NCBI RefSeq assembly: GCF_019721995.1 | Contig: NZ_BLYC01000006.1 | Span: 1 to 64,000, forward strand | Direction of reading: 5' to 3' | DNA: 64,000 nucleotides | Source: Bathymodiolus japonicus methanotrophic gill symbiont | GTDB taxonomy: Bacteria > Pseudomonadota > Gammaproteobacteria > Methylococcales > Methylomonadaceae | Shown here: positions 2,852 through 60,385 of the stretch, piece after piece | How positions within the stretch are numbered: position 1 is the first letter of the stretch | How the letters are laid out: each line of letters starts with the position of its first letter | Made by a program: the position numbers and the translations under genes | Notes under the pieces: generated by a model | What the model saw: the letters and a program-made list of their open reading frames with translations, nothing else | Told to the model about the DNA's origin: nothing | The model's database searches: none

Positions 2852-3699
2852 ATTTCGCCCAGCCAGGCTGTTCCAACGCTGGCGCCCATGCTAAAAAATG
2901 TCTTACCCAGTGTGGTGAATATTTCAACTCAGGGTATAGTGGCCATACAACAACACCCACAAATGAATAACCCTTATTTTCGCCGTTTTGCGCCGCGCGC
3001 CTAAAGAACGACAAACTCAGGGCATAGGTTCGGGCGTTATTGTGGATGCAGAAAACGGGTATATCATTACCAATAATCATGTGATTGCTCACGCAGATAC
3101 TATTTTTGTAACGCTACACAACAAGAAAAAATTAAAGGCGACATTAATCGGCACAGATGCTGAAACGGATATTGCCGTATTACAGGTCGCTGCAAAAGAC
3201 CTCACCAGCATTCCCCTGGGTGATTCAGATAATTTACAGGTAGGTGATTTTGCCGTCGCTATTGGCAATCCATTTGGGCTTAGCCATACAGTGACTTCTG
3301 GCAGGCGCGCCATGCTACCTCACGAAATTCCGGGACTCCTGTCGCCGTAATTCGTTCACCTACGCAGCGAATAGGAGATGCTCCAGCCGCCCTGCGTCCG
3401 CCACAGACTGAGCACAAAGCAGCTCAGTCATGGCTACCACAAATGGCTCTACGGCTATTCGGGATAAAATTTTAGCCTCCCTCGCGCGCTATCGCGCACT
3501 TCGGATTGGCAAATTTCCCTGCGCCTTCTGGAGACTATCAGCCCGTCCGGGGCTGACAGCGTATGGTCAGCGCGCTGGGTCGTACCGACCTGGGCATTGA
3601 AGGCTATGAAAATTTCATTCAGACGGATGTTTCAATTAACCCAGGTAATTCAGGCGGTGCTTTAATTGATCTACGTGGTCGCTTAATTGGTATTAATTC
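2852..3699 (+). pseudogene. degP: DegP/HtrA-family periplasmic serine protease, degraded
   Basis: The DegP protease domain is readable: LAPMLKNVLPSVVNIST, then TNNHVIAHAD (catalytic His), DAETDIAVLQ (Asp) and NPGNSGGAL (Ser). It is broken four ways. The signal peptide region is replaced by a PIE-3 palindrome. A GC-repeat frameshift lies at about 2998 (...FAPRA stop, continuing in another frame as PKERQTQGIGSG). A PIE-1 sits at 3302-3561 between TSG and MVSALGR. An IS-E end at 3700 removes the PDZ domains. Removing the PIE-1 alone restores the local frame exactly. DegP normally degrades misfolded envelope proteins; this copy cannot work. Confidence 0.9.
3302..3561 (+). repeat. PIE-1 element (260 bp) inside degP
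   Basis: The element runs from CAGGCGCGCC to GGGGCTGACAGCG. Host DNA reads ...ACTTCTGG before and TATGGTCAGC after, which join as Thr-Ser-Gly-Met-Val-Ser, the expected DegP sequence. There is therefore no target duplication and no deletion. Hairpin-forming segments include CAGCCC/GGGCTG near the 3' end and GCGCG/CGCGC. No credible ORF. Confidence 0.95.
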
Positions 3700-4605
3700 C
3701 ATCAGTGTTCCCATTGAAAGAAGAAGTACCTAAACAAAGCAGCCTATAACCTACCTGAAGGTAGCACCACTCGAATATTTCCATATTTTTGATTTTAATC
3801 ACTTATAACAGCAAATAGACACTCGGGGAGTCGCTATTTTTGCGAAAGCTTGTTTTTGGCATCCCAGCCCAAGCAAGCAGCAAAAACTTAACGCGACCAC
3901 TTATGCCTCCGGCGGCCCCGATTCGTCCTCGTCACCTCGTTCCGACCCAACAAGGGGTCGGAACATAGGCTCCAAATGACTTGACGCCGTGTCGGATGGC
4001 CTTTTATTTTGTCTCCACCTTCGCTAACGCTCAGACTCCGACAAAATAACGGCCCTACGGCTATCGCGGACTAAAAATCATCACTTCGCTTAGGCTCCGT
4101 TTCCCTGATTTTCAGCGCTTGCAATTGCCGAAAAAATTTTCTAAAAATTTCCGTTTTAATCACCTCATAAACGGATATCACCCATGCTTAAAGACCTACC
4201 ACTCTCTGAACATATTCACCAACACTGCAATGAAAGTATGGAACGTGCCCTGTTAGCAGAGCATCATCCTTTGTGGGCTCGTTCATGCCCAGAGTTGAAG
4301 GATATCGACTTTATTCGCCTTGGGTTATTACGCTGTATCAGTGTAGTGATAGTGGTCGCCATTTCCTCCAAACCAGTGAACAGATTTATGGCCAGCTGCT
4401 TCCCCACTCAACGTATTTTAAATCACTGAAGTCGCATAGACGAACAAGTATGCTTGAGGCATTTGAACAGCAGAGCTATCATCTTCACGCTGAAACACTG
4501 CTATCGCAAGGCATTGATTATCTTAAAGCATTCCCAGAACTTGACGAATACACCATAGAAGCGGCGGATGGACATTTTATTGATCATGCCTGCCTGACTG
4601 AAAAA
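3700..4605 (+). pseudogene. IS-E (IS4-like) 5' fragment, copy 2
   Basis: An IS-E left end (CATCAGTGTTCCC) inserted in degP. A PIE-3 at 3823-4117 replaces about 42 bp of the 5' region. The transposase N-terminal half follows (MLKDLPLSEH at 4184) with a frameshift at about 4347 (GTAGTGATAG against GTAGTCGATAG elsewhere). It stops at about 4605 after GHFIDHACLTEK. Non-functional. Confidence 0.85.
3823..4117 (+). repeat. PIE-3 element (295 bp) inside IS-E with local deletion
   Basis: Full-length PIE-3. The left flank ATAGACAC and right flank CTTGCAATTG are both IS-E sequence, but the roughly 42 bp between them in intact copies (7077-7120) are absent. This is the only within-one-host PIE-3 copy associated with a deletion. 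Confidence 0.9.
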
Positions 4606-8239: not shown

Positions 8240-8499
8240 CAGGCGCGCCATGCTACTTCACGAAATTCCGGGACTCCTGTCGCCGTAATTCGTTCACCTA
8301 CGCAGCGAATAGGAGATGCTCCAGCCGCCCTGCGTCCGCCACAGACTGAGCACAAAGCAGCTCAGTCATGGCTACCACAAATGGCTCTACGGCTATTCGG
8401 GATAAAATTTTAGCCTCCCTCGCGCGCTATCGCGCACTTCGGATTGGCAAATTTCCCTGCGCCTTCTGGAGACTATCAGCCCGTCCGGGGCTGACAGCG
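8240..8499 (+). repeat. PIE-1 element (260 bp) inside IS-E; proven empty site
   Basis: IS-E copy 5 (around 44574) has the uninterrupted sequence CAAAAACACAACAGCCAG. Here the same sequence is split as CAAAAACACA / ACAGCCAG around the 260-bp element. The comparison fixes both ends to the base and shows no duplication and no loss. Confidence 0.97.
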
Positions 8500-9792
8500 A
8501 CAGCCAGAATTGATTCATCCATCGGATAAAAAATATAGCGAGGCTCTGGAGATAAGGCAGCAACAGGCTCAAAAACGAGATCGTTTTGTGAATCCATTAT
8601 TTTTCCAGGCAAGAATGTCTCGTATCACTCGATGTTCAAGTTTTTCCATCCCATTGCCATCAAACTCTTACCTTCACCCAGCAGAACAATACTTTAATGA
8701 TGCTGTTGGCCCTAAGCGCCCTAAATCTCTGCCAATCATATGTTTTCCTGATGACATCAGTTGAAACACATCCTTTATTAATTCACCTAACTCTTTCAGC
8801 TTATCACCAGGATCTGGAAACTCTAGCAATGACGTGATGAACTCAAGCAGTACATCCATTTGAGACTTGCGCTGTAAGCTTCCTACGGTATACGCAGGTA
8901 GTTTGCTTTCAATGCGGGCTATTTGCCCTGGGTGAAGGAGAAGGCAATGGTCAAACAAAAGACTCAGAATCAGGCCACGGCTTGATCCCTCTTCATCTAA
9001 TTGTTTGGCCTCACGCCCCCATCCTTCATAAAGCTTCCAGTCCTCAAAGAAAACATCAATCAGCCATCTCAACGTATAGGCTTGAATAATATCTTGTGTG
9101 CGCCAAGTCAGGTCTGTCGCCACTAAATAGCGATAGTCGTTTTCACCGTCATATTTTAAGGCAATGACAAAGCGTTTTTTACTGTGAGAACTCACCTTTA
9201 ATCGTGCACTGCTGACAGTCACTTTAATCTCTTTGCCGCCACGTACGCGTATTATCTGATCAATGCCTTTGTTAATCGAATTAAAGTAGCTCTCGACTGA
9301 CCTTATTCTACCTCTATATTCAATATTTTGGTTTTTACGTAATTGGCTAATCACCTGCGAGCCTCCAGATTCTTTAGCGGCTTCGTCCATAAAGGCTTTT
9401 TCACCATACAGCGCATCAAGCCAGTACGCCTTTAATTTTAATCAGGCTATGCGCAACTTTAAACTCTTTTAATAAGCCTAATGCAATCTCTGTTTTGGTC
9501 GGGTAGGCACTGTCACGTTCAGGCTCAATAGGCCGATCTTTTTTTGCTATACCGCTCTTTTTCAACCGTTTATCTTCTTTATCCCACTGCTTTAAGGCTG
9601 GATCCGGCATATAAAAGAAAAAACCGACAGGCACTGTAATGGATGAGGTAACTAGCAGCAATAATACTATCGTTTGTCCATTAACATACCCGCCGGAGCC
9701 TTTGTGTTTCTGCTTGTAAACCTTATAAATACGTTTTGTAGACTTAGATCGTGCTCGGTCTGATTCATCAAAGGCCAACACACCTTCAGTAA

Positions 9793-10291
9793 CTGAAGTT
9801 TCCCAATTATTGAGTGGCTGAAATACACAATGCTGGTGTATCGAGGTTTATTTTAGGTGGTTTTGCCATGTTTATAGCAAACCCCTACTTAATTCCCCTT
9901 AGGCAATAGCATTTGAAACGAATGAAAAGACTATTTTTTTCATATAGTTTCGGGGAGTCGCTATTTTTGCGAAAGCCTGTTTTGGGCATCCCAGCCCAAG
10001 CAAGCAGCAAAAACTTAACGCGACCACTTATGCCTCCGGCGGCCCCGATTCGTCCTCGTCACCTCGTCCCGACCCAACAAGGGGTCGGAACATAGGCTCC
10101 AAATGACTTGACGCCGTGTCGGATGGCCTTTTATTTTGTCTCCACCTTCGCTAACGCTCAGACTCCGACAAAATAACGGCCCTACGGCTATCGCGGACTA
10201 AAAATCATCACTTCGCTTAGGCTCCGTTTCCCTGATTTTCAGCGGTAGCATAGTTTCAATTTTACCATAAATAATTATTGGGAAACTTCAG
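9793..10291 (+). repeat. MITE-D inside IS-F, itself holding PIE-3
   Basis: The terminal repeats are CTGAAGTTTCCCAATTATT and the matching GGGAAACTTCAG. The 9-bp duplication CTTCAGTAA lies at 9784-9792 and 10292-10300. Removing it rejoins the IS-F transposase as ...RYGITEGVLAFDESD, matching IS-F copy 2. The 204-bp MITE is enlarged by the 295-bp PIE-3. Confidence 0.95.
9950..10244 (+). repeat. PIE-3 element (295 bp) inside MITE-D; proven empty site
   Basis: Intact MITE-D (37430-37445) reads CATATAGTTGTAGCATAG. Here it is split exactly as CATATAGTT / GTAGCATAG around TCGGGGAGTCGC...TTTTCAGCG. No duplication, no deletion. This is the innermost layer of a five-deep nest (IS66, IS-E, IS-F, MITE-D, PIE-3). 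Confidence 0.97.
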
Positions 10292-10849: not shown

Positions 10850-11454
10850 ATGATAAACGGGCTTGTTGTTAATCAAGTGTTTTTGGCGACCGGCGTTACT
10901 GATATGCGTAAATCTATCAATGGTCTGTCACTGATTGTTTCGGAACAGTTTGGCCATGATCCCTTTGCCGGAAGTATTTTTGTCTTTTGTAACCGCTCTC
11001 GCGATAAACTGAAAATACTCTATTGGGAGTGTAATGGGTTCTGGCTTTATTATCGGCGCCTGGATAACAGGCGCGCCATGCTACCTCACGAAATTCCGGG
11101 ACTCCTGTCGCCGTAATTCGTTCACCTACGCAGCGAATAGGAGATGCTCCAGCCGCCCTGCGTCCGCCACAGACTGAGCACAAAGCAGCTCAGTCATGGC
11201 TACCACAAATGGCTCTACGGCTATTCGGGATAAAATTTTAGCCTCCCTCGCGCGCTATCGCGCACTTCGGATTGGCAAATTTCCCTGCGCCTTCTGGAGA
11301 CTATCAGCCCGTCCGGGGCTGACAGCGGGGGAAGTTTCAGTGGCCAACCGAGTTAAACGAACATCCGTTATCATTAACCTTACGTGAATTACACTGGTTA
11401 TCCTATCGGCAAGCGCAAGCTCATACCGCTATTTCTGGCTTAATAAATAATTGA
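10850..11454 (+). pseudogene. tnpB: IS66 TnpB (OrfB), interrupted by PIE-1
   Basis: The N-terminal part reads INGLVVNQVFLATGVTDMRK, then KLKILYWECNGFWLYYRRLD. The C-terminal part after the insert reads KGKFQWPTELNEHPLSLTLR and ends ...SGLINN. Excising 11068-11327 gives RRLDKGKFQWP, the conserved IS66 TnpB block, with no base missing. The start overlaps the tnpA stop (ATGA). Confidence 0.92.
11068..11327 (+). repeat. PIE-1 element (260 bp) inside IS66 tnpB
   Basis: The boundaries CTGGATAA / GGGGAAGTTTC rejoin in frame. The sequence is nearly identical to the other PIE-1 copies, which suggests recent spread. Confidence 0.95.
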
Positions 11455-15459: not shown

Positions 15460-15719
15460 CAGGCGCGCCATGCTACCTCACGAAATTCCGGGACTCCTGT
15501 CGCCGTAATTCGTTCACCTACGCAGCGAATAGGAGATGCTCCAGCCGCCCTGCGTCCGCCACAGACTGAGCACAAAGCAGCTCAGTCATGGCTACCACAA
15601 ATGGCTCTACGGCTATTCGGGATAAAATTTTAGCCTCCCTCGCGCGCTATCGCGCACTTCGGATTGGCAAATTTCCCTGCGCCTTCTGGAGACTATCAGC
15701 CCGTCCGGGGCTGACAGCG
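15460..15719 (+). repeat. PIE-1 element (260 bp), intergenic
   Basis: A full-length PIE-1 between ybeD and the DUF523 gene. The flanks are AAATAAGA and AAGCCACGCCC, with no duplicated bases. It lies between co-oriented genes (minus strand) while the element is in plus orientation, so its hairpins would be transcribed antisense if the operon reads through. Confidence 0.95.
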
Positions 15720-18104: not shown

Positions 18105-18364
18105 CAGGCGCGCCATGCTACCTCACGAAATTCCGGGACTCCTGTCGCCGTAATTCGTTCACCTACGCAGCGAATAGGAGATGCTCCAGCCGCCCTGCGT
18201 CCGCCACAGACTGAGCACAAAGCAGCTCAGTCATGGCTACCACAAATGGCTCTACGGCTATTCGGGATAAAATTTTAGCCTCCCTCGCGCGCTATCGCGC
18301 ACTTCGGATTGGCAAATTTCCCTGCGCCTTCTGGAGACTATCAGCCCGTCCGGGGCTGACAGCG
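18105..18364 (+). repeat. PIE-1 element (260 bp) upstream of dacA
   Basis: Full length, lying about 96 bp upstream of dacA and so probably within or beyond its promoter. The flanks are CATGAAGAG and CATGAAGGG; this chance-like similarity (8 of 9 bases) is the only copy where something resembling a duplication is seen. It lies beside a host palindrome that also begins CATGAAGGG. Confidence 0.93.
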
Positions 18365-18686: not shown

Positions 18687-18946
18687 CAGGCGCGCCATGC
18701 TACCTCACGAAATTCCGGGACTCCTGTCGCCGTAATTCGTTCACCTACGCAGCGAATAGGAGATGCTCCAGCCGCCCTGCGTCCGCCACAGACTGAGCAC
18801 AAAGCAGCTCAGTCATGGCTACCACAAATGGCTCTACGGCTATTCGGGATAAAATTTTAGCCTCCCTCGCGCGCTATCGCGCACTTCGGATTGGCAAATT
18901 TCCCTGCGCCTTCTGGAGACTATCAGCCCGTCCGGGGCTGACAGCG
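18687..18946 (+). repeat. PIE-1 element (260 bp) inside rlpA SPOR domain
   Basis: It lies antisense to rlpA. Excision joins ...QIGA and FATRENAL codons exactly (GGTGCATT + TGCAACACG on the minus strand). No duplication. Confidence 0.96.
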
Positions 18947-19013: not shown

Positions 19014-19293
19014 CAGGCGCGCCATGCTACCTCACGAAATTCCGGGACTCCTGTCGCCATAATTCGTTCACCTACGCAGCGGATGGGAGATGCCCTGAAC
19101 GCCCTGCGTCCGCAACGACTACGCACAAAAGCCGCTTCGTCATTACTACCTCACTGGCTGGACGGCTATTCGGAATGCAATTCTTGCTCCTCTCGCGTGC
19201 TGCTAGCACACGTCGAATCAGCGAATTGCCCTGTCGCCTATCAGGGACTAAAAATCACCACTTCGCTAAGCTACGTTTCCATGATTTTCAGCG
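19014..19293 (+). repeat. PIE-2 element (280 bp) inside rlpA
   Basis: It begins CAGGCGCGCC like PIE-1 and keeps about the same first 90 bases, then diverges and ends GATTTTCAGCG like PIE-3. Excision restores GTAGTGGCGATTCAGC+CTGGTGAAAAT as VVAIQPGEN in the rlpA frame. Internal stem GCAATTC/GAATTGC corresponds to AAATTT/AAATTT in PIE-1. Confidence 0.96.
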
Positions 19294-28912: not shown

Positions 28913-29192
28913 CAGGCGCGCCATGCTACCTCACGAAATTCCGGGACTCCTGTCGCCATAATTCGTTCACCTACGCAGCGGATGGGAGATGCACTGAACG
29001 CCCTGCGTCCGCAACGACTACGCACAAAAGCCGCTTCGTCATTACTACCTCACTGGCTGGACGGCTATTCGGAATGCAATTCTTGCTCCTCTCGCGTGCT
29101 GCTAGCACACGTCGAATCAGCAAATTGCCCTGTCGCCTATCAGGGACTAAAAATCACCACTTCGCTAAGCTCCGTTTCCATGATTTTCAGCG
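28913..29192 (+). repeat. PIE-2 element (280 bp)
   Basis: Full length from CAGGCGCGCC to GATTTTCAGCG, with flanks AAAAACGC and AGCGCATT. On the minus strand the DNA either side and across the IS-G site could read as one short membrane-like stretch (FSAQRSAVESAVVFVGTVLL, then YNTAIKVI), but I do not recognise it. The family spacing is exact. Confidence 0.92.
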
Positions 29193-29456: not shown

Positions 29457-29964
29457 CATCAGTGTTCCCCTATCAATTGAGGCCGTGAAACTAACCTCGC
29501 CACAAGAGAGCTCATAAAGCACTGTAAAGACATTCCTGTTATTATTGCGTTTTGAACTGCTCGAATGGTATACGAGCTGATACGAGATATTCTTGCCTGG
29601 AAAAATAATGGACTCACAAAACGATCTCGTTTTTGAGCCTGTTGCTGCCTAATCTCCAGAGCCTTGCTATATTTTTTATCCGATGGATGAATCAATTCTG
29701 GCTGTTGTGTTTTTGAAATCTCTTCAAACACGCGCATTAAATTATAGCTCATTGCAGTCAGGCGCATTTGATTTTCAAGTGAGCGGGTATTGGAAGACCA
29801 AGCTTTAGTTTCCTTGAAATTACGTGCCTGAGTTCCGTTTGTCACCAGACAAAGAAATCTGAGCAACCCACTTCTGAGATTCAACGCGTAAATCCCCCGG
29901 CCGCATAAACTTTCCCCTTGCTGTTTTTTTCAGTATGGCAGGCATGATCATAAATGTCCATCCG
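29457..29964 (-). pseudogene. IS-E (IS4-like) fragment, copy 4
   Basis: Minus-strand remnant holding the 3' end of the IS-E transposase (ETKAWSSNTRSLENQMRL ...LVARLVSRPQLIGEH) joined to a short middle piece (NLRSGLLRFLCLVTNGTQ); about 400 bp between are missing. It preserves Trp where copy 3 has a stop. It ends against PIE-2-type sequence at about 29965. Confidence 0.85.
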
Positions 29965-40859: not shown

Positions 40860-42197
40860 TTAATGCGATAAAGTACGTAATAAATTGGCATAATCTTCAT
40901 CAACTTTATATTCGCTGGTACGTAATGCTTTAATCCGTTTGCAGGCATTAATAACCGTAGTATGGTCGCGACCACTAAAGGCATCACCAATTTCCGGCAA
41001 GCTATGGCTGGTTAATTCCCTTGCGAGTGACATGGCAATTTGCCGAGGCCGGGTGACTGATTGTTTACGGCTTTTAGAGAGTAAATCAGCGATTCTTATT
41101 TTGAAGTAATCGGCAACGGTTTTTTGAATATTGTCGATGCTGACCAGTTTATCTTGCAAGGAGATTAAATCGTGTAGTGCTTCTTTGGCAAAATCAATGC
41201 TGATATCTGCCCCGGTAAACTGGGCATTTGCCAGAACACGGCGTAATGCACCTTCTAGGTCTCGTACATTGGATGGAATACGTTTACCTATAAAAAAAGC
41301 AACTTCGTGATCTAGTTCAACGCCATTTTGCTGGGCTTTGTTGATTAAAATTGCGGCGCGTGTTTCCAGATCAGGCGGCTCGACAGCCACGGGTAAGCCC
41401 CAGCCAAAACGTGATTTTAGCCGATCTTCCAGGCCTTCAATTTCCTTTGGGTATTTATCACAGGTTAGAACTACCTGGTTTTTCTTTTCCAGCAGGGTGT
41501 TAAAGGTATGAAAAAACTCTTCCTGTGAGCGTTCTTTTCCGGCAAAAAACTGGATATCATCAACAAATAATGCATCTACATTACGGTAATATTCTTTAAA
41601 CGCATTAATGCTGTTTTGCTGGAATGCCCTGACCATATCCTGAACAAATTTTTCTGAGTGTAAATACACTACATTTGCATTAGGATTTTTTGCCAGTATT
41701 GCATTGCCAATAGCATGCATTAAATGTGTTTTTCCTAACCCAGATGCACCATAGATCAGCAGAGGATTATAGGCTTTGCCTATATTTTCAGAAACCTGTA
41801 TAGAAGCGGCTTTTGCTAGTTGATTGGATTTACCTTCAACGAAATTTTCAAAGGTAAAAGCGGTATTAATAAAGGTGGGTGTTTTTTTCTTTTTCTGCGG
41901 CTCATTTGCCGAACCAATCACACGGGTGTTGCGATTTGGTACAACGGTCGGTTTAACGCTTTTTGTGCCGATCGCCATTTTTACAGTATATTGGCCACTG
42001 GAGAATTCATAGACGGCATCTTCAATTTTAGCTATGAAATGATCTTTTACATGCGCAATAATAAACTGGTTAGGTGCCAGCAGTGTAATCACATCTTTTT
42101 CATCTTGCGCTTGTAATGGCCGAATCCAGGTGTTTAAATCATTTGTAGAGATTTCATTTTCAAGACGGGAAAGACAGGAATTCCAGATAGAGCTCAT
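40860..42197 (-). CDS. dnaA: Chromosomal replication initiator DnaA
   Basis: About 445 residues from ATG 42197 (GTG 42209 would add four). Domain I begins [20 protein letters not shown]. The AAA+ core has Walker [11 protein letters not shown], Walker [12 protein letters not shown] and the arginine-finger region. Domain IV ends [20 protein letters not shown] and [17 protein letters not shown], the DnaA-box-binding signature. dnaN and recF are not adjacent; an SDR gene is divergent upstream and a sugar transferase lies downstream. No DnaA boxes are evident in 42210-42330, so this is probably not the origin. CTGAAGCATGCTTCAG upstream could be an operator. Confidence 0.96.
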
Positions 42198-42331
42198 TAA
42201 ACGATTCACAGGATTAAGTAAACAGCAGCTATAGCGCTGTTAGGTATAAGAAAAAACAGGATCTGAAGCATGCTTCAGTTAAGGTAAATCATAGCATAAA
42301 AGTGCATATCACTCTTCAATTAATAACTAAA

Positions 42332-43779: not shown

Positions 43780-44074
43780 TCGGGGAGTCGCTATTTTTGC
43801 GAAAGCTTGTTTTGGGCATCCCAGCCCAAGCAAGCAGCAAAAACTTAACGCGACCACTTATGCCTCCGGCGGCCCCGATTCGTCCTCGTCACCTCGTCCC
43901 GACCCAACAAGGGGTCGGAACATAGGCTCCAAATGACTTGACGCCGTGTCGGATGGCCTTTTATTTTGTCTCCACCTTCGCTAACGCTCAGACTCCGACA
44001 AAACAACGGCCCTACGGCTATCGCGGACTAAAAATCATCACTTCGCTTAGGCTACGTTTCCCTGATTTTCAGCG
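43780..44074 (+). repeat. PIE-3 element (295 bp) inside IS-E; proven empty site
   Basis: IS-E copy 3 (7437-7450) reads GTCGCATAGACGAAC uninterrupted. Here it is split as GTCGCATA / GACGAAC around the 295-bp element, without duplication or loss. Confidence 0.97.
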
Positions 44075-44465: not shown

Positions 44466-44920
44466 ATTTCAAGGAAACTAAAGCTTGGTCTTCCAATACC
44501 CGCTCACTTGAAAATCAAATGCGCCTGACTGCAATGAGCTATAATTTAATGCGCGTGTTTGCAGAGATTTCAAAAACACAACAGCCAGAATTGATTCATC
44601 CATCGGATAAAAAATATAGCGAGGCTCTGGAGATAAGGCAGCAACAGGCCAAAAAACGAGATCGTTTTGTGAATCCATTATTTTTCCAGGCAAGAATATC
44701 TCGTATCAGCTCGTATACCATTCGAGCAGTTCAAAACGCAATAATAACAGGAATGTCTTTACAGTGCTTTATGAGCTCTCTTGTGGCGAGGTTAGTTTCA
44801 CGGCCTCAATTGATAGGGGAACACTGATGATGTTTATAGCAAACCCCTACTTAATTCCCCTTAGGCAATAGCATTTGAAACGAATGAAAAGACTATTTTT
44901 TTTCATATAGTTGTAGCATA

Positions 44921-49032: not shown

Positions 49033-49192
49033 CAGGCGCGCCATGCTACCTCACGAAATTCCGGGACTCCTGTCGCCATAATTCGTTCACCTACGCAGCG
49101 GATGGGAGATGCCCTGAACGCCCTACGTCCGCAACGACTACGCACAAAAGCCGCTTCGTCATTACTACCTCACTGGCTGGACGGCTATTCGG
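49033..49192 (+). repeat. PIE-2 element, 3'-truncated
   Basis: The first 160 bases of PIE-2 (CAGGCGCGCC to GGCTATTCGG), inserted in IS-G after CCTGAAACAGA; the 3' part and the rest of IS-G are replaced by sequence leading to argS. Confidence 0.9.
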
Positions 49193-49309
49193 TACGCAAA
49201 GAAAACTCGGCAAATAAACATATATCCAGATAATAAATTTTACTATCGTCAGTGAGTTTTTTCAGGGATAATAGAAAGATTTGCTAAGTCAGTTTAATTC
49301 CATAAGCGC

Positions 49310-52938: not shown

Positions 52939-53198
52939 CGCTGTCAGCCCCGGACGGGCTGATAGTCTCCAGAAGGCGCAGGGAAATTTGCCAATCCGAA
53001 GTGCGCGATAGCGCGCGAGGGAGGCTAAAATTTTATCCCGAATAGCCGTAGAGCCATTTGTGGTAGCCATGACTGAGCTGCTTTGTGCTCAGTCTGTGGC
53101 GGACGCAGGGCGGCTGGAGCATCTCCTATTCGCTGCGTAGGTGAACGAATTACGGCGACAGGAGTCCCGGAATTTCGTGAGGTAGCATGGCGCGCCTG
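52939..53198 (-). repeat. PIE-1 element (260 bp) inside the CHAP gene
   Basis: The only PIE-1 on the minus strand of the window, co-oriented with its host gene. The flanks in element orientation, GGTCAAGAG and AAGGCATAG, rejoin as Gly-Ser-Arg-Glu-Gly-Ile-Gly-Val-Phe, the expected CHAP sequence. Confidence 0.96.
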
Positions 53199-53576: not shown

Positions 53577-53856
53577 CGCTGAAAATCATGGAAACGGAGC
53601 TTAGCGAAGTGGTGATTTTTAGTCCCTGATAGGCGACAGGGCAATTCGCTGATTCGACGTGTGCTAGCAGCACGCGAGAGGAGCAAGAATTGCATTCCGA
53701 ATAGCCGTCCAGCCAGTTAGGTAGTAATGACGAAGCGGCTTTTGTGCGTAGTCGTTGCGGACGCAGGGCGTTCAGGGCATCTCCCATCCGCTGCGTAGGT
53801 GAACGAATTATGGCGACAGGAGTCCCGGAATTTCGTGAGGTAGCATGGCGCGCCTG
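53577..53856 (-). repeat. PIE-2 element (280 bp) inside the CHAP gene
   Basis: Flanks in element orientation AAAAAATGAA and ATTGGCACG rejoin as Lys-Asn-Glu-Ile-Gly-Thr. No duplication. Co-oriented with the host gene. Confidence 0.96.
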
Positions 53857-54934: not shown

Positions 54935-55229
54935 TCGGGGAGTCGCTATTTTTGCGAAAGCTTGTTTTGGGCATCCCAGCCCAAGCAAGCAGCAAAAACT
55001 TAACGCGACCACTTATGCCTCCGGCGGCCCCGATTCGTCCTCGTCACCTCGTCCCGACCCAACAAGGGGTCGGAACATAGGCTCCAAATGACTTGACGCC
55101 GTGTCGGATGGCCTTTTATTTTGTCTCCACCTTCGCTAACGCTCAGACTCCGACAAAACAACGGCCCTACGGCTATCGCGGACTAAAAATCTTCACTTCG
55201 CTAAAGCTCCGTTTCCAGGATTTTCAGCG
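54935..55229 (+). repeat. PIE-3 element (295 bp) joining IS-F to IS630
   Basis: Full length. Left neighbour is IS-F, right neighbour is an IS630 fragment; neither sequence continues on the other side. Confidence 0.93.
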
Positions 55230-55774: not shown

Positions 55775-56069
55775 TCGGGGAGTCGCTATTTTTGCGAAAG
55801 CTTGTTTTGGGCATCCCAGCCCAAGCAAGCAGCAAAAACTTAACGCGACCACTTATGCCTCCGGCGGCCCCGATTCGTCCTCGTCACCTCGTCCCGACCC
55901 AACAAGGGGTCGGAACATAGGCTCCAAATGACTTGACGCCGTGTCGGATGGCCTTTTATTTTGTCTCCACCTTCGCTAACGCTCAGACTCCGACAAAACA
56001 ACGGCCCTACGGCTATCGCGGACTAAAAATCTTCACTTCGCTTAGGCTACGTTTCCCTGATTTTCAGCG
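55775..56069 (+). repeat. PIE-3 element (295 bp) joining IS630 to MITE-D
   Basis: Full length and almost identical to the copy 840 bp upstream. Left neighbour IS630 (GAGCTTG), right neighbour MITE-D (AAAGACTATTTTTTTC). Confidence 0.93.
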
Positions 56070-57325: not shown

Positions 57326-57486
57326 CGCTGAAAATCATGGAAACGGAGCTTAGCGAAGTGGTGATTTTTAGTCCCTGATAAGCGACAGGGCAATTCGCTG
57401 ATTCGACGTGTGCTAGCAGCACGCGAGAGGAGCAAGAATTGCATTCCGAATAGCCGTCCAGCCAGTGAGGTAGCATGGCGCGCCTG
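57326..57486 (-). repeat. PIE-2 internal deletion derivative (161 bp)
   Basis: Both ends are intact (CAGGCGCGCC and TTTTCAGCG) but 119 bp are missing between two CTACCTCAC repeats present in full PIE-2. Flanks in element orientation are TAATTATG and GTAGGTTGG. 57181-57325 has no recognisable gene. Confidence 0.92.
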
Positions 57487-57604: not shown

Positions 57605-60091
57605 TTACTGAGTTGGCTTTAGCAAATTCGCCTGAACAATTTTAATCTGTGACTTTATATATCTTTTATTATGCTCCAGTGAATCAGCTAAACGCTCATT
57701 CATATCAATTCTCCACCAGTCTTCCTGTTTTTCATGCTGGATGGCTAATTTGTCTAGCGACAATAAATCATAAATATTCACCCATTCATCTCCGACTTTA
57801 AGTGCCAGATTCGGATTGAAAAGATAATGACCCCGCTTGATGCGAAAAAATATTTTACGATTGTTTTTATCATCTTTAGTAAATTCATTTTTGGATAAAA
57901 TACTGGAAAGATAAGCCCGCTTTTTTCTCCGTTCGGGTAAGACACTGTTGGGCATGTGCTGAACTGCATCCATAAAATCCTGACTAGAAAAAGCACCTGC
58001 CGAATATACTATTTTTTGGGGCAATGTACGATAAAATAAAGCAATCATCATATTCAACATAAAAAATTCCATTTGATGTTTGTCTAGTTTAATTAAACGT
58101 CCATCAACCTGAATACTAATACTTGTTGGTTCTAGTAGGAGGTAGGTGTCTGCTAATTTTTTACGTGCGTAATTCTCATCGCCACTTGCCTGAGAAAGTG
58201 CTATTTGTAAGGCGGTAAATCCATTTTCATCTACTTTTTCGGTATCCGCACCTTGTTCAAATAAGGCTTTAATGACCCCGACATTGCTCACCCATGCAGC
58301 AACCATTAATGGTGTCTGGTTAAATAGATTACGAAAATCGGGACCATATTGGTTCACTTGCTTTATGGCTGCATCCGGTTTTTTAAAGTTATAAGCTGCA
58401 TAGTGCTTCTGCTGTAATAGCTGTAGTCCCTTAGCAGGATTCTTAGCCGGTTTAAAATCAGCTTTGATCAAGCTATTCAGTAGTTTACGGTCTTCATAAA
58501 CCAAGGCATACTCAAATAATTCTAATTTCGCTTTTTTATTGTTTTGTTCAAAAGCTTGTTGTTTCAATGCTTCTAAACTCTCACCACTTATCACTGTCCA
58601 GTTTGGTGTTTTTTGTTTGAGAATTTCCTCACGAATACGCTCAGCTTGTTCCTGTTTTCCTTGTAGTTCCAGTTTATGTGCTTCTTGCCGCCAATCATCA
58701 AGGCTAGAGTTGCTATCGGCAATTTCCAGAGAGGCCTGAGCATTATCCAGTCCAAGTAAAGCTAGTAGTTGTTGTTTAGGCGCACTTTCTATCCAGTATA
58801 GATTTTTAATCGCACGGGTTAAGGCTACATACAGAGAGTTTATGTAAAACTTATAAATCTCTAATGATTTATCGGTTTTGTCTTTGGTACGGGAGAATTT
58901 AAGGTCTTTATCCAGGTCTTCAGCTGTGACACCTTTACTGATTTCCCGATAGCGTTGCTCTTCCTGAGACAGAAAATTGTAAAGAATAATATTTTCGTAT
59001 TCCAGACCTTTAGCTTCTTGTATGGTAAAAACCAGTGGTGTACTAAAGTGCTTTTGCGCCATCGGTTTTTTCTCTGGGCTCATCACTATGACGGCAAAGC
59101 GTGTCGAAGCTTTGGTTTTTTTATCCAGCTCTTGTTTGATATGGTCGTTATCTTGTAAGAAAACCACTTCACCTTGCGTGTGACCGTTGCTTTCGACCAG
59201 GTAATGGCTTTCCTTATCAATCGAGCCAAAGCGGTTATTTTTGATTTTCAGTATTTTATTTGCAATCTCAGTCACCTGAGGTGAGTTCCGATAGTTGGTA
59301 TTTAAAATACGAATCAGGTTTTCTGCTCCGCCTAAATCTTCTTGCTTATAAAATAGGCTTTTTACTTTTGACCAGGAAAAAAAGTTGGGATGAACTATCT
59401 GATTGGAGTCACCACATAAAATAAAATCATGCACATGATGCAGGGATTTTATAATCAAATAGAGCTGAATATTGGTCAGATCTTGTACTTCATCGACAAT
59501 AATAAAATCATAACGTGCTTGCAGTTTATCTAAATACTGATGACTAACAACATTGCTATCATAGAGTTTATTGTCTTGTAAAAAACTGAGGTATTTTTCA
59601 AAAATACTATAAACGGCATCTCGCTCTGCTTGCAAGAAGATGGTTTCTTTTATACCTAAAGCTGAGTAGTCTTCTCGACTTAGCCAGCTTTTATCAGTTG
59701 CCGGTCCTGTAATGACACCACGGAATTCTTCAAATAATTTATGCGCATCATTCAGCTGCTTGCCTTGTTTATGGCGGCTAAACCATTGCTGGAAACGCTG
59801 AAAAGTGATGGGCTTGCCTTCGGGAACATGAATGCTTTCTAAAAATTCCTGAAACGATAGAAAATCTACTTGCTGATCTTCATTATCGTAGTTATGGGCA
59901 TAATATAAATCACGTGAATTTTTGACTAGATAAGCCGACTGGGTCACATATAATACATCACCCACAGCATGTTTCATTTTTTCCAAAGTCAGTGCGGTTT
60001 TACCGCTACCCGCCGAACCAATAATTACCAGAGGCGACTGTAAGGCATAGACTGCTTGCTGACTATCATCAAATGAGACAATTTTATCCAT
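57605..60091 (-). CDS. UvrD/Rep-like superfamily 1 helicase with ankyrin repeats
   Basis: 828 residues from ATG 60091 (MDKIVSFDDSQQAVYALQS); the open frame runs further upstream only into PIE-3. Walker A GSAGSGKT lies at residues 25-32 and Walker B FIIVDEVQDL near 199-203. FCGDSNQIVHPNFFSW-like ILCGDSNQIVHP, FTIQEAKGLEYENIILY and YVALTRAIKNLYWIE follow, so all SF1A motifs are present. After a helical segment, two ankyrin-like repeats (NQTPLMVAAWVSNVGVIKAL, then NGFTALQIALSQA) and a C-terminal domain of unknown fold follow. Single-gene SF1 helicases with extra domains often belong to defence or mobile loci. The start codon abuts PIE-3. Confidence 0.88.
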   Translation of the reverse strand: MDKIVSFDDSQQAVYALQSPLVIIGSAGSGKTALTLEKMKHAVGDVLYVTQSAYLVKNSRDLYYAHNYDNEDQQVDFLSFQEFLESIHVPEGKPITFQRFQQWFSRHKQGKQLNDAHKLFEEFRGVITGPATDKSWLSREDYSALGIKETIFLQAERDAVYSIFEKYLSFLQDNKLYDSNVVSHQYLDKLQARYDFIIVDEVQDLTNIQLYLIIKSLHHVHDFILCGDSNQIVHPNFFSWSKVKSLFYKQEDLGGAENLIRILNTNYRNSPQVTEIANKILKIKNNRFGSIDKESHYLVESNGHTQGEVVFLQDNDHIKQELDKKTKASTRFAVIVMSPEKKPMAQKHFSTPLVFTIQEAKGLEYENIILYNFLSQEEQRYREISKGVTAEDLDKDLKFSRTKDKTDKSLEIYKFYINSLYVALTRAIKNLYWIESAPKQQLLALLGLDNAQASLEIADSNSSLDDWRQEAHKLELQGKQEQAERIREEILKQKTPNWTVISGESLEALKQQAFEQNNKKAKLELFEYALVYEDRKLLNSLIKADFKPAKNPAKGLQLLQQKHYAAYNFKKPDAAIKQVNQYGPDFRNLFNQTPLMVAAWVSNVGVIKALFEQGADTEKVDENGFTALQIALSQASGDENYARKKLADTYLLLEPTSISIQVDGRLIKLDKHQMEFFMLNMMIALFYRTLPQKIVYSAGAFSSQDFMDAVQHMPNSVLPERRKKRAYLSSILSKNEFTKDDKNNRKIFFRIKRGHYLFNPNLALKVGDEWVNIYDLLSLDKLAIQHEKQEDWWRIDMNERLADSLEHNKRYIKSQIKIVQANLLKPTQ

Positions 60092-60385
60092 CGGGGAGTC
60101 GCTATTTTTGCGAAAGCTTGTTTTGGGCATCCCAGCCCAAGCAAGCAGCAAAAACTTAACGCGACCACTTATGCCTCCGGCGGCCCCGATTCGTCCTCGT
60201 CACCTCGTCCCGACCCAACAAGGGGTCGGAACATAGGCTCCAAATGACTTGACGCCGTGTCGGATGGCCTTTTATTTTGTCTCCACCTTCGCTAACGCTC
60301 AGACTCCGAAAAAACAACGGCCCTACGGCTATCGCGGACTAAAAATCTTCACTTCGCTAAAGCTCCGTTTCCCTGATTTTCAGCG
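60091..60385 (+). repeat. PIE-3 element (295 bp) at the helicase/methyltransferase joint
   Basis: Full length. The T of the helicase start codon is shared with the element's first base. Removing it would give TCT AAT GGA TAA, closing the methyltransferase frame and overlapping the helicase ATG. Confidence 0.94.

Follow-up and report, generated by a model that had tools for sequence, protein, structure and literature searches.

The window, meaning the whole 64-kb stretch of DNA that was analysed, belongs to a genome of 4.97 Mb in 109 contigs. At positions 8240-8499 (+) it contains PIE-1, a 260-bp element that is used here as the reference copy. Seven full 260-bp PIE-1 copies are present in the window, six on the plus strand (3302-3561, the reference copy, 11068-11327, 15460-15719, 18105-18364 and 18687-18946) and one on the minus strand (52939-53198). 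An earlier reading, made from the sequence only, described seven copies with common ends. All seven are indeed there, but five more copies share only the 5' end of PIE-1, having a different 3' end or being truncated or deleted. These belong to a sibling, T2, whose 5' end is that of PIE-1 and whose 3' terminal hairpin is different. Three T2 copies are 280 bp long (19014-19293 and 28913-29192 on the plus strand, 53577-53856 on the minus strand), one is 3'-truncated (49033-49199, +), and one (57326-57486, -) is reduced to 161 bp by an internal deletion in which the stretch between two CTACCTCA repeats has gone, with both ends and the flanking G described below retained. The third type, B, is a cousin of PIE-1 with another 5' end, and the window holds seven more copies of it with both ends, all on the plus strand. 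Six are full B elements (3823-4117, which is 295 bp long, 9950-10244, 43780-44074, 54935-55229, 55775-56069 and 60091-60385), and in the seventh (2011-2298) the first few bases are altered. For the copies at 3823, 54935, 55775 and 60091 the start is placed three bases ahead of GGGAGTCGC.

Elements of this family are abundant in the remainder of the sampled genome as well. Five query sequences produced 371 aligned pieces, with one B copy usually present as two pieces, in a sample of 864 kb (17% of the genome), made up of the window and 800 kb from contigs C1 and C2. These pieces cover 8.2% of the 864 kb, which places the family among the densest gene-free element populations in a bacterium known to us. 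Of the marked ends in the sample, 256 are 5' and 246 are 3', and most of them pair at full length. Pairing of the ends, with 80-bp flanks required, gave 222 full-length related elements: 64 PIE-1 (260 bp), 63 T2 (mostly 280 bp), 91 B (mostly 295 bp) and 4 mixed. Copies lacking either the 80-bp flanks or the GGGAGTCGC start are left out of the exact-insertion and target counts given below. Linear scaling extrapolates to about 1,300 full copies in the whole genome. The copies differ very little from one another; 43 of the 64 PIE-1 copies match their consensus exactly and the others differ from it by two bases at most, while the medians for T2 and B copies are 1-2 differences. The reference copy at 8240 is one base apart from most other PIE-1 copies. 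The left end of B is unrelated to that of PIE-1, and T2 joins the 5' end of PIE-1 to a 3' end like that of B. The elements are gene-free and too short to encode a transposase. At one other locus (L129, 2405-2791, -) a 128-aa open frame crosses a T2 copy, so some annotated hypothetical proteins here may be translations of elements.

The sequence-only reading held that PIE-1 inserts with neither duplication nor loss of target sequence, and cited an empty site. This site is real: it occurs free of mismatches in two places, 44571-44588 (+) and 29698-29715 (-), with a chance expectation of 0.00, and it corresponds to the reference copy. The left and right flanks of each of the 222 elements were sought separately elsewhere in the 864 kb, and an uninterrupted paralogous site was found for 94 of them, many such sites presumably being IS copies. 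The gap between the flanks is exactly 0 bp in 86 of the 94; the eight others are +1 (two), +4, +13, +20 (two), -6 and -17. A stricter rerun, with flanks aligned to the last base, gave 84 exact sites. Within the window, a gap of 0 is seen for the PIE-1 copy at 11068 and for the B copies at 9950 and 43780. Three T2 copies are themselves split by PIE-1, and in two of these all T2 bases are kept across both sides, in agreement with the claim. Target duplication is not visible in the flanks of 65 PIE-1 and 62 T2 copies: 2-bp matches occur in 8 and 9 copies, respectively, 3-bp matches in three PIE-1 and two T2 copies, and a 6-bp match in one T2 copy. By eye, the ends CAGGCG...ACAGCG and TCGGGGAGTC...TCAGCG share no inverted repeat, just as had been reported. 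A DDE-type MITE was rejected as the identity of the element, given the missing terminal inverted repeats and the missing fixed-length target duplication in the flank and empty-site tests. Exact insertion without duplication is a property of the IS200/IS605 family.

The same reading found no motif common to the target sites, and here it was wrong. The fourth base after the right end (+4) is G in 215 of 222 copies (background 0.22; P = 5e-132), the others having T (five) or A (two). An initial sample had it in 38 of 39 copies, and it is found in all three types (PIE-1, 63/65; T2, 62/62; B, 89/92). It also recurs in other genomes: 26 of the 30 elements at L079-L108, nearly all from other genomes, are readable, and 24 of the 26 carry it, the exceptions being L099 and L102. 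At the reference copy the motif, ^NNNG, reads ACAG (8500-8503, +). Other positions of the right flank behave differently, with C at +1 in only 5 and G at +5 in only 11 of the 222 copies, and the left flank has no comparable fixed position.

A G is likewise found at base 4 of the elements themselves, in 221 of 222. In B copies, bases 1-4 are TCGG (51), TTGG (18), GCGG (11) or ACGG (6), the remainder being nearly identical, and we read the B end as obeying the same rule, with the C fixed and the NNN free. The variable bases 1-3 of B would be accounted for by a cut whose position shifts along the CCCC run, taking in a base of the flank. The last four bottom-strand bases begin with C in 14 of 14 A-type sequences, and 5'-CNNN^ on the other strand sits immediately left of the element. 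From their sequence, we read these sites as consistent with one cut rule, ^NNNG (5'-CNNN^ on the opposite strand), which would apply at the target, outside one end of the element and inside the other. Since a target motif is present, the earlier argument that IS200/IS605 elements do not fit loses its support: read on the opposite strand, the left side has a fixed flank, 5'-CNNN^, just where IS200/IS605 elements carry theirs, although a requirement for a single base is unusually permissive.

The reference copy folds better as DNA than shuffled sequences on both strands (z -2.75 and -3.88), and its top strand does so as RNA (z -3.17). A terminal hairpin, located at 8473-8497 (-) in the reference copy, begins two bases inside the right end; its minus-strand stem is CTGTCAGCCC/GGGCTGATAG, with G.T at pair 3. 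The foot of this hairpin, CTA/CAG on the top strand, is present in 28 of 32 distinct sequences from several genera and reads CTG/TAG on the bottom strand, where the third pair is G.T, while stem pairs above the foot vary on both sides in some sequences. The stability of the right-end (CGCTG) hairpin is mostly no better than that of shuffled sequence (z -2.5 to +0.7). At the other end, a strong hairpin (z -2.1 to -7.4) is found in 17 of 18 B types and in four A types (L032, L035, L037 and L127), and a clear one is absent from PIE-1 (z -1.1) and from T2-like types (z -1.4 to +1.4). Bases at the start of PIE-1 can instead pair with a stretch close to the right-end hairpin. With only two bases between the cut and the hairpin foot, a separate four-base guide would not fit. 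Among the B-type consensus pairs, 25 of 51 show more than one Watson-Crick type, a count taken without a chance control, and RNAalifold gave no usable consensus on either strand. G.T and A.C at consensus pairs number 25 versus 35 in B and 10 versus 23 in A, which leans toward the bottom strand; doubtful pairs are among them, and the counts carry no weight here. The energy of the whole-element fold was discarded as a strand test, since raw values favour the bottom strand in 31 of 32 sequences and values corrected by shuffling in 18 of 32.

The elements are not randomly oriented. Every 40-kb bin of C1 and C2 has positive GC skew; there, 167 full copies are minus-strand and 39 plus-strand, compared with 48 minus and 53 plus for control matches to six IS genes of the window (Fisher 5e-9). 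The bias persists, at 64:16, among the 80 copies with an exact empty paralogue, for which selection on host genes should matter less. Within the window the GC skew is negative to about 36 kb and near zero after that; copies with both ends number 11 plus and 0 minus before 36 kb, and 4 plus and 3 minus beyond it. A gene at 40860-42209, named from its sequence, is taken to be dnaA. Because orientation follows the GC skew, the CNNN^CGCTG strand would, as judged from sequence, lie mainly on the lagging-strand template. The bias is weaker in three sister genomes, where counts made with coarse skew sampling and with old and new copies mixed gave agreement for 15 of 20 copies in G008 (a plasmid copy dropped), 20 of 33 in G043 (five second pieces of the same elements dropped) and, by eye, 8 of 13 in G092. 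Of the five exceptions in G092, four are at 2.23-2.35 Mb, beside the skew switch, and the fifth is a 55-bp tail.

The account that we favour, as moderately probable, is that the PIE-1 family comprises non-autonomous elements transposing in single-stranded form, in the manner of IS200/IS605 transposons and PATEs. A replication fork would expose the bottom strand (5'-CNNN^CGCTG...GCGCGCCTG^-3') on the lagging-strand template. A Y1-type HUH nuclease, supplied in trans, would recognise the hairpin that lies two bases in from the CGCTG end, and would cut 3' of CNNN at both ends, the fixed base being the C four bases ahead of the cut. The freed strand would then be joined at another CNNN^ in a single-stranded target, with neither duplication nor loss. 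Exact insertion, ^NNNG at the target and at the element end, the orientation bias in this genome and the conserved hairpin foot can be read directly from the DNA; from there we infer the single-strand intermediate, the Y1 identity of the enzyme and its action in trans.

Candidates for such an enzyme are available. A profile search for Y1_Tnp gave 22 matches in this genome, mostly fragments, and the genome has one intact RAYT-like gene of 222 aa, a name that we assume from sequence features plus blastp kinship rather than from a labelled family. An IS200-type frame without a stop, covering profile positions 5-120 of 121, is present at L129. The complete genome G092 has seven element copies at 99-100% identity together with four RAYT-like open frames of 178-207 aa and two fragments; since it bears elements yet shows only RAYT-like frames and fragments, RAYT is the first candidate. 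Y1 genes are found in 92 of 101 genomes of the bacterial family. An L055-type element query has matches in 66 of those Y1 carriers; among the 9 genomes that lack Y1 it matches 3, each at one or two places. Convincing linkage of Y1 genes to elements was found at none of the loci examined: the flanks (up to 1.5 kb) of 30 RAYT-homologue loci, this genome's included, contain no full element and one 76-bp fragment.

The suggestion that an autonomous relative might carry a gene between the same ends was not borne out in the 864 kb, where no parent with tnpA in that position was found. Only five 5'-3' end pairs there are more than 400 bp apart: three are T2 copies split by PIE-1, one includes 152 bp of unrelated DNA, and one, of 2 kb, contains B copies and has a longest stop-free frame of 229 aa. 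The ends of 20 IS200 copies from six sister genomes are, by eye, unrelated to those of the family. An IS200 that lies inside a decayed B copy (L054, 5888-6352) was considered as a parent and rejected; the host copy is without recognisable ends, and the arrangement reads as an independent insertion. A 120-bp short form (G090:C304) proved to be an N-gap artefact. More tentatively, and with considerable doubt, the family may represent a stand-alone single-strand system of Methylococcales: a nuclease encoded elsewhere in the genome, either undescribed or domesticated, would mobilise folded gene-free elements, with the cut set by a single C four bases upstream. If true, no hairpin-guided target rule known to us would be more permissive, and the system would have produced an extrapolated 1,300 or so full copies in one bacterial genome.

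Several other routes would also yield gene-free, structured repeats. In RNA-mediated, SINE-like spread, which we think unlikely, a structured transcript would be copied by a reverse transcriptase acting in trans and priming at a nick after 5'-CNNN. Such a route would suit the strong fold of the reference copy (RNA z -3.2), the covarying B-type stems (the 25 of 51 pairs above, again without a chance control), the near-identity of the copies, the presence of reverse transcriptase genes in 7 of 7 genomes tested, and the geometry of a CNNN-3'OH as a primer. However, 5' truncation is not the rule, most of the 256 5' and 246 3' ends pairing at full length, and RNA copying does not account for the rule that base 4 of the element itself is G. 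The family ends are also unlike the consensus ends of group II introns, which counts against an RNA route. L037 has a group II intron D1-D4 match at 757-930, about 0.5 kb from a PIE-like element, and contig C1 of G008 has 13 reverse-transcriptase matches, five with 427-aa frames and 12 of the 13 on the plus strand. Somewhat further down in our estimation, and thus quite unlikely, is an undescribed enzyme, neither Y1, Y2, DDE nor RT, that inserts at ^NNNG. Neither a parent element nor a linked enzyme was found, the target is a single base, and the hairpin is too near the cut for a classic guide, all of which would fit; on the other side, the positive features of the family have precedents in IS200/IS605.

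Less probable again is an RNA-guided IscB/TnpB system of the HEARO kind, in which the stretch would be an omega-RNA, the right flank would be its TAM, and a nuclease acting in trans would keep copies in place. The idea arose from the right-flank motif; the layout is alike in that HEARO, too, is a structured stretch with a short motif in the flank at its 3' end, and HEARO with IscB-type genes is present in sister genera. Membership in HEARO (RF02033) was nevertheless rejected for lack of a covariance-model match: Rfam gave no match in the window at the gathering score, and there is no HEARO match even at E 10 around the 8240 copy. The PF14239 profile, which is silent in control genomes and positive in 17 of 101 family genomes, has 0 matches in this genome, and the HEARO/IscB loci have no blastn match to four element queries. 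True HEARO RNAs of sister genera are located at L060 439-640, L061 1221-1446, L063 1244-1454 and L076 2069-2327, and those of L060, L061 and L063 lie just upstream of IscB-type (RRXRR) genes. At L066-L075 (about position 1500), several genera have short open frames of 67-172 aa whose similarity to the IscB N-terminal profile is confined to roughly its first 50 positions; these may be IscB remnants or a separate family. The least probable driver that we considered is a rolling-circle Y2 (IS91/Helitron-type) transposase, which we regard as highly improbable. The anatomy of the elements fits it about as well, with a one-sided target beside a hairpin end, no terminal inverted repeats and no duplication, and Y2 genes are present in 5 of 10 genomes tested. 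Against it, Y2_Tnp (PF04986) has 0 matches in five element-bearing genomes, namely this one (G000), G008, G015, G092 and G043. The profile matched five relatives and no control genome, and G092, G043 and G008 are genomes of one or two contigs.

Among the matches listed, the named carriers are Methylococcales, plus two contigs of a MAG labelled Methylophaga. They include Methyloprofundus sp. INp10, on plasmid pINp10 and from gill tissue of Bathymodiolus japonicus (a plasmid search gave one match), the methanotrophic gill symbionts of Bathymodiolus platifrons and B. puteoserpentis, a Methylomonas MAG and Methylomicrobium sp. wino1. Judging by these carriers, the window itself probably comes from a methane-eating mussel symbiont. 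A B-kind query matches 69 of 101 family genomes and 25 of 29 genera (E up to 0.001, some matches partial), while PIE-1 matched 0 of 16 genomes of the order outside the family, and viral contigs and phages gave no match. A search confined to the open literature found no prior description of the family. More than 200 insertion events in one genome make both target choice and coupling to replication readable, and they raise the question of which enzyme mobilises elements that show no trace of a parent. Because the B-kind query matches so many family genomes, the answer would apply widely among methanotrophs, and it may help to explain genome erosion in deep-sea mussel symbionts; IS elements are reported in a related mussel symbiont (PMC10652631).

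Of the systems compared, HEARO/IscB (RF02033) differs in that neither a covariance-model match nor, in this genome, an IscB profile match was obtained. REPs and REPINs with their RAYT (TnpA-REP) are alike in being gene-free, of high copy number and hairpin-based, with the enzyme encoded elsewhere in the genome. REPs, however, are 20-40 bp long, carry GTAG and are cut at CT/CA by the TnpA-REP enzymes studied, compared with 260-295 bp here, and no complete element flanks the RAYT-like genes examined (30 loci). The CGTC repeats, palindromes that seemingly have no dedicated transposase despite the presence of RAYT genes (PMC3733652), may offer a useful parallel to the PIE-1 family.

As described in PMC6006769, IS200/IS605 elements use a single strand, target the lagging-strand template, and have subterminal hairpins and a target tetranucleotide at the left end. 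The likeness to IS608 and ISDra2 (PMC6006769 and PMC7290912) extends to a motif on one flank, outside the element, to a comparable cut inside the other end, to the subterminal hairpin and to the lagging-strand-template bias. In contrast to these elements, tnpA and tnpB are absent here, the second hairpin is missing in PIE-1, the hairpin is two bases from the cut, and one base is fixed rather than the tetranucleotide described in PMC6006769. PATEs, according to PMC3119063, have no terminal inverted repeats, have palindromes near their ends, are too short for a transposase and, like the PIE-1 family, insert without duplication; many copies, and mobile elements that often sit inside mobile elements, are further points in common. 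Unlike the present family, for which no such parent was found, PATEs have ends that resemble haloarchaeal IS605-type transposons, and the same paper gives 177 and 194 copies, all families included, for two Haloquadratum genomes, far below the level seen here, with 222 full copies in 17% of one genome. The single-base target and the exchange of ends between types are further differences. PIE-1 works like a PATE, but we stop short of counting it as a full member, since searches for a parental IS605-type element and for another palindrome in PIE-1 found neither. The exact insertion described in the sequence-only reading stands and is reinforced. No known transposase could be assigned, so a new enzyme is conceivable, but most of the case for the new mechanism raised in that reading falls with the +4 G rule; the family is apparently related to IS200/IS605-type transposons, gene-free and highly abundant, and does not point to a novel chemistry of integration. 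It remains unusual in four respects: its scale, its rule of one base, ends that are modular, and an enzyme that is missing. Our verdict is that the PIE-1 family is a new, very abundant PATE-like variant, with a mechanism that we infer from its ends, targets and orientation.
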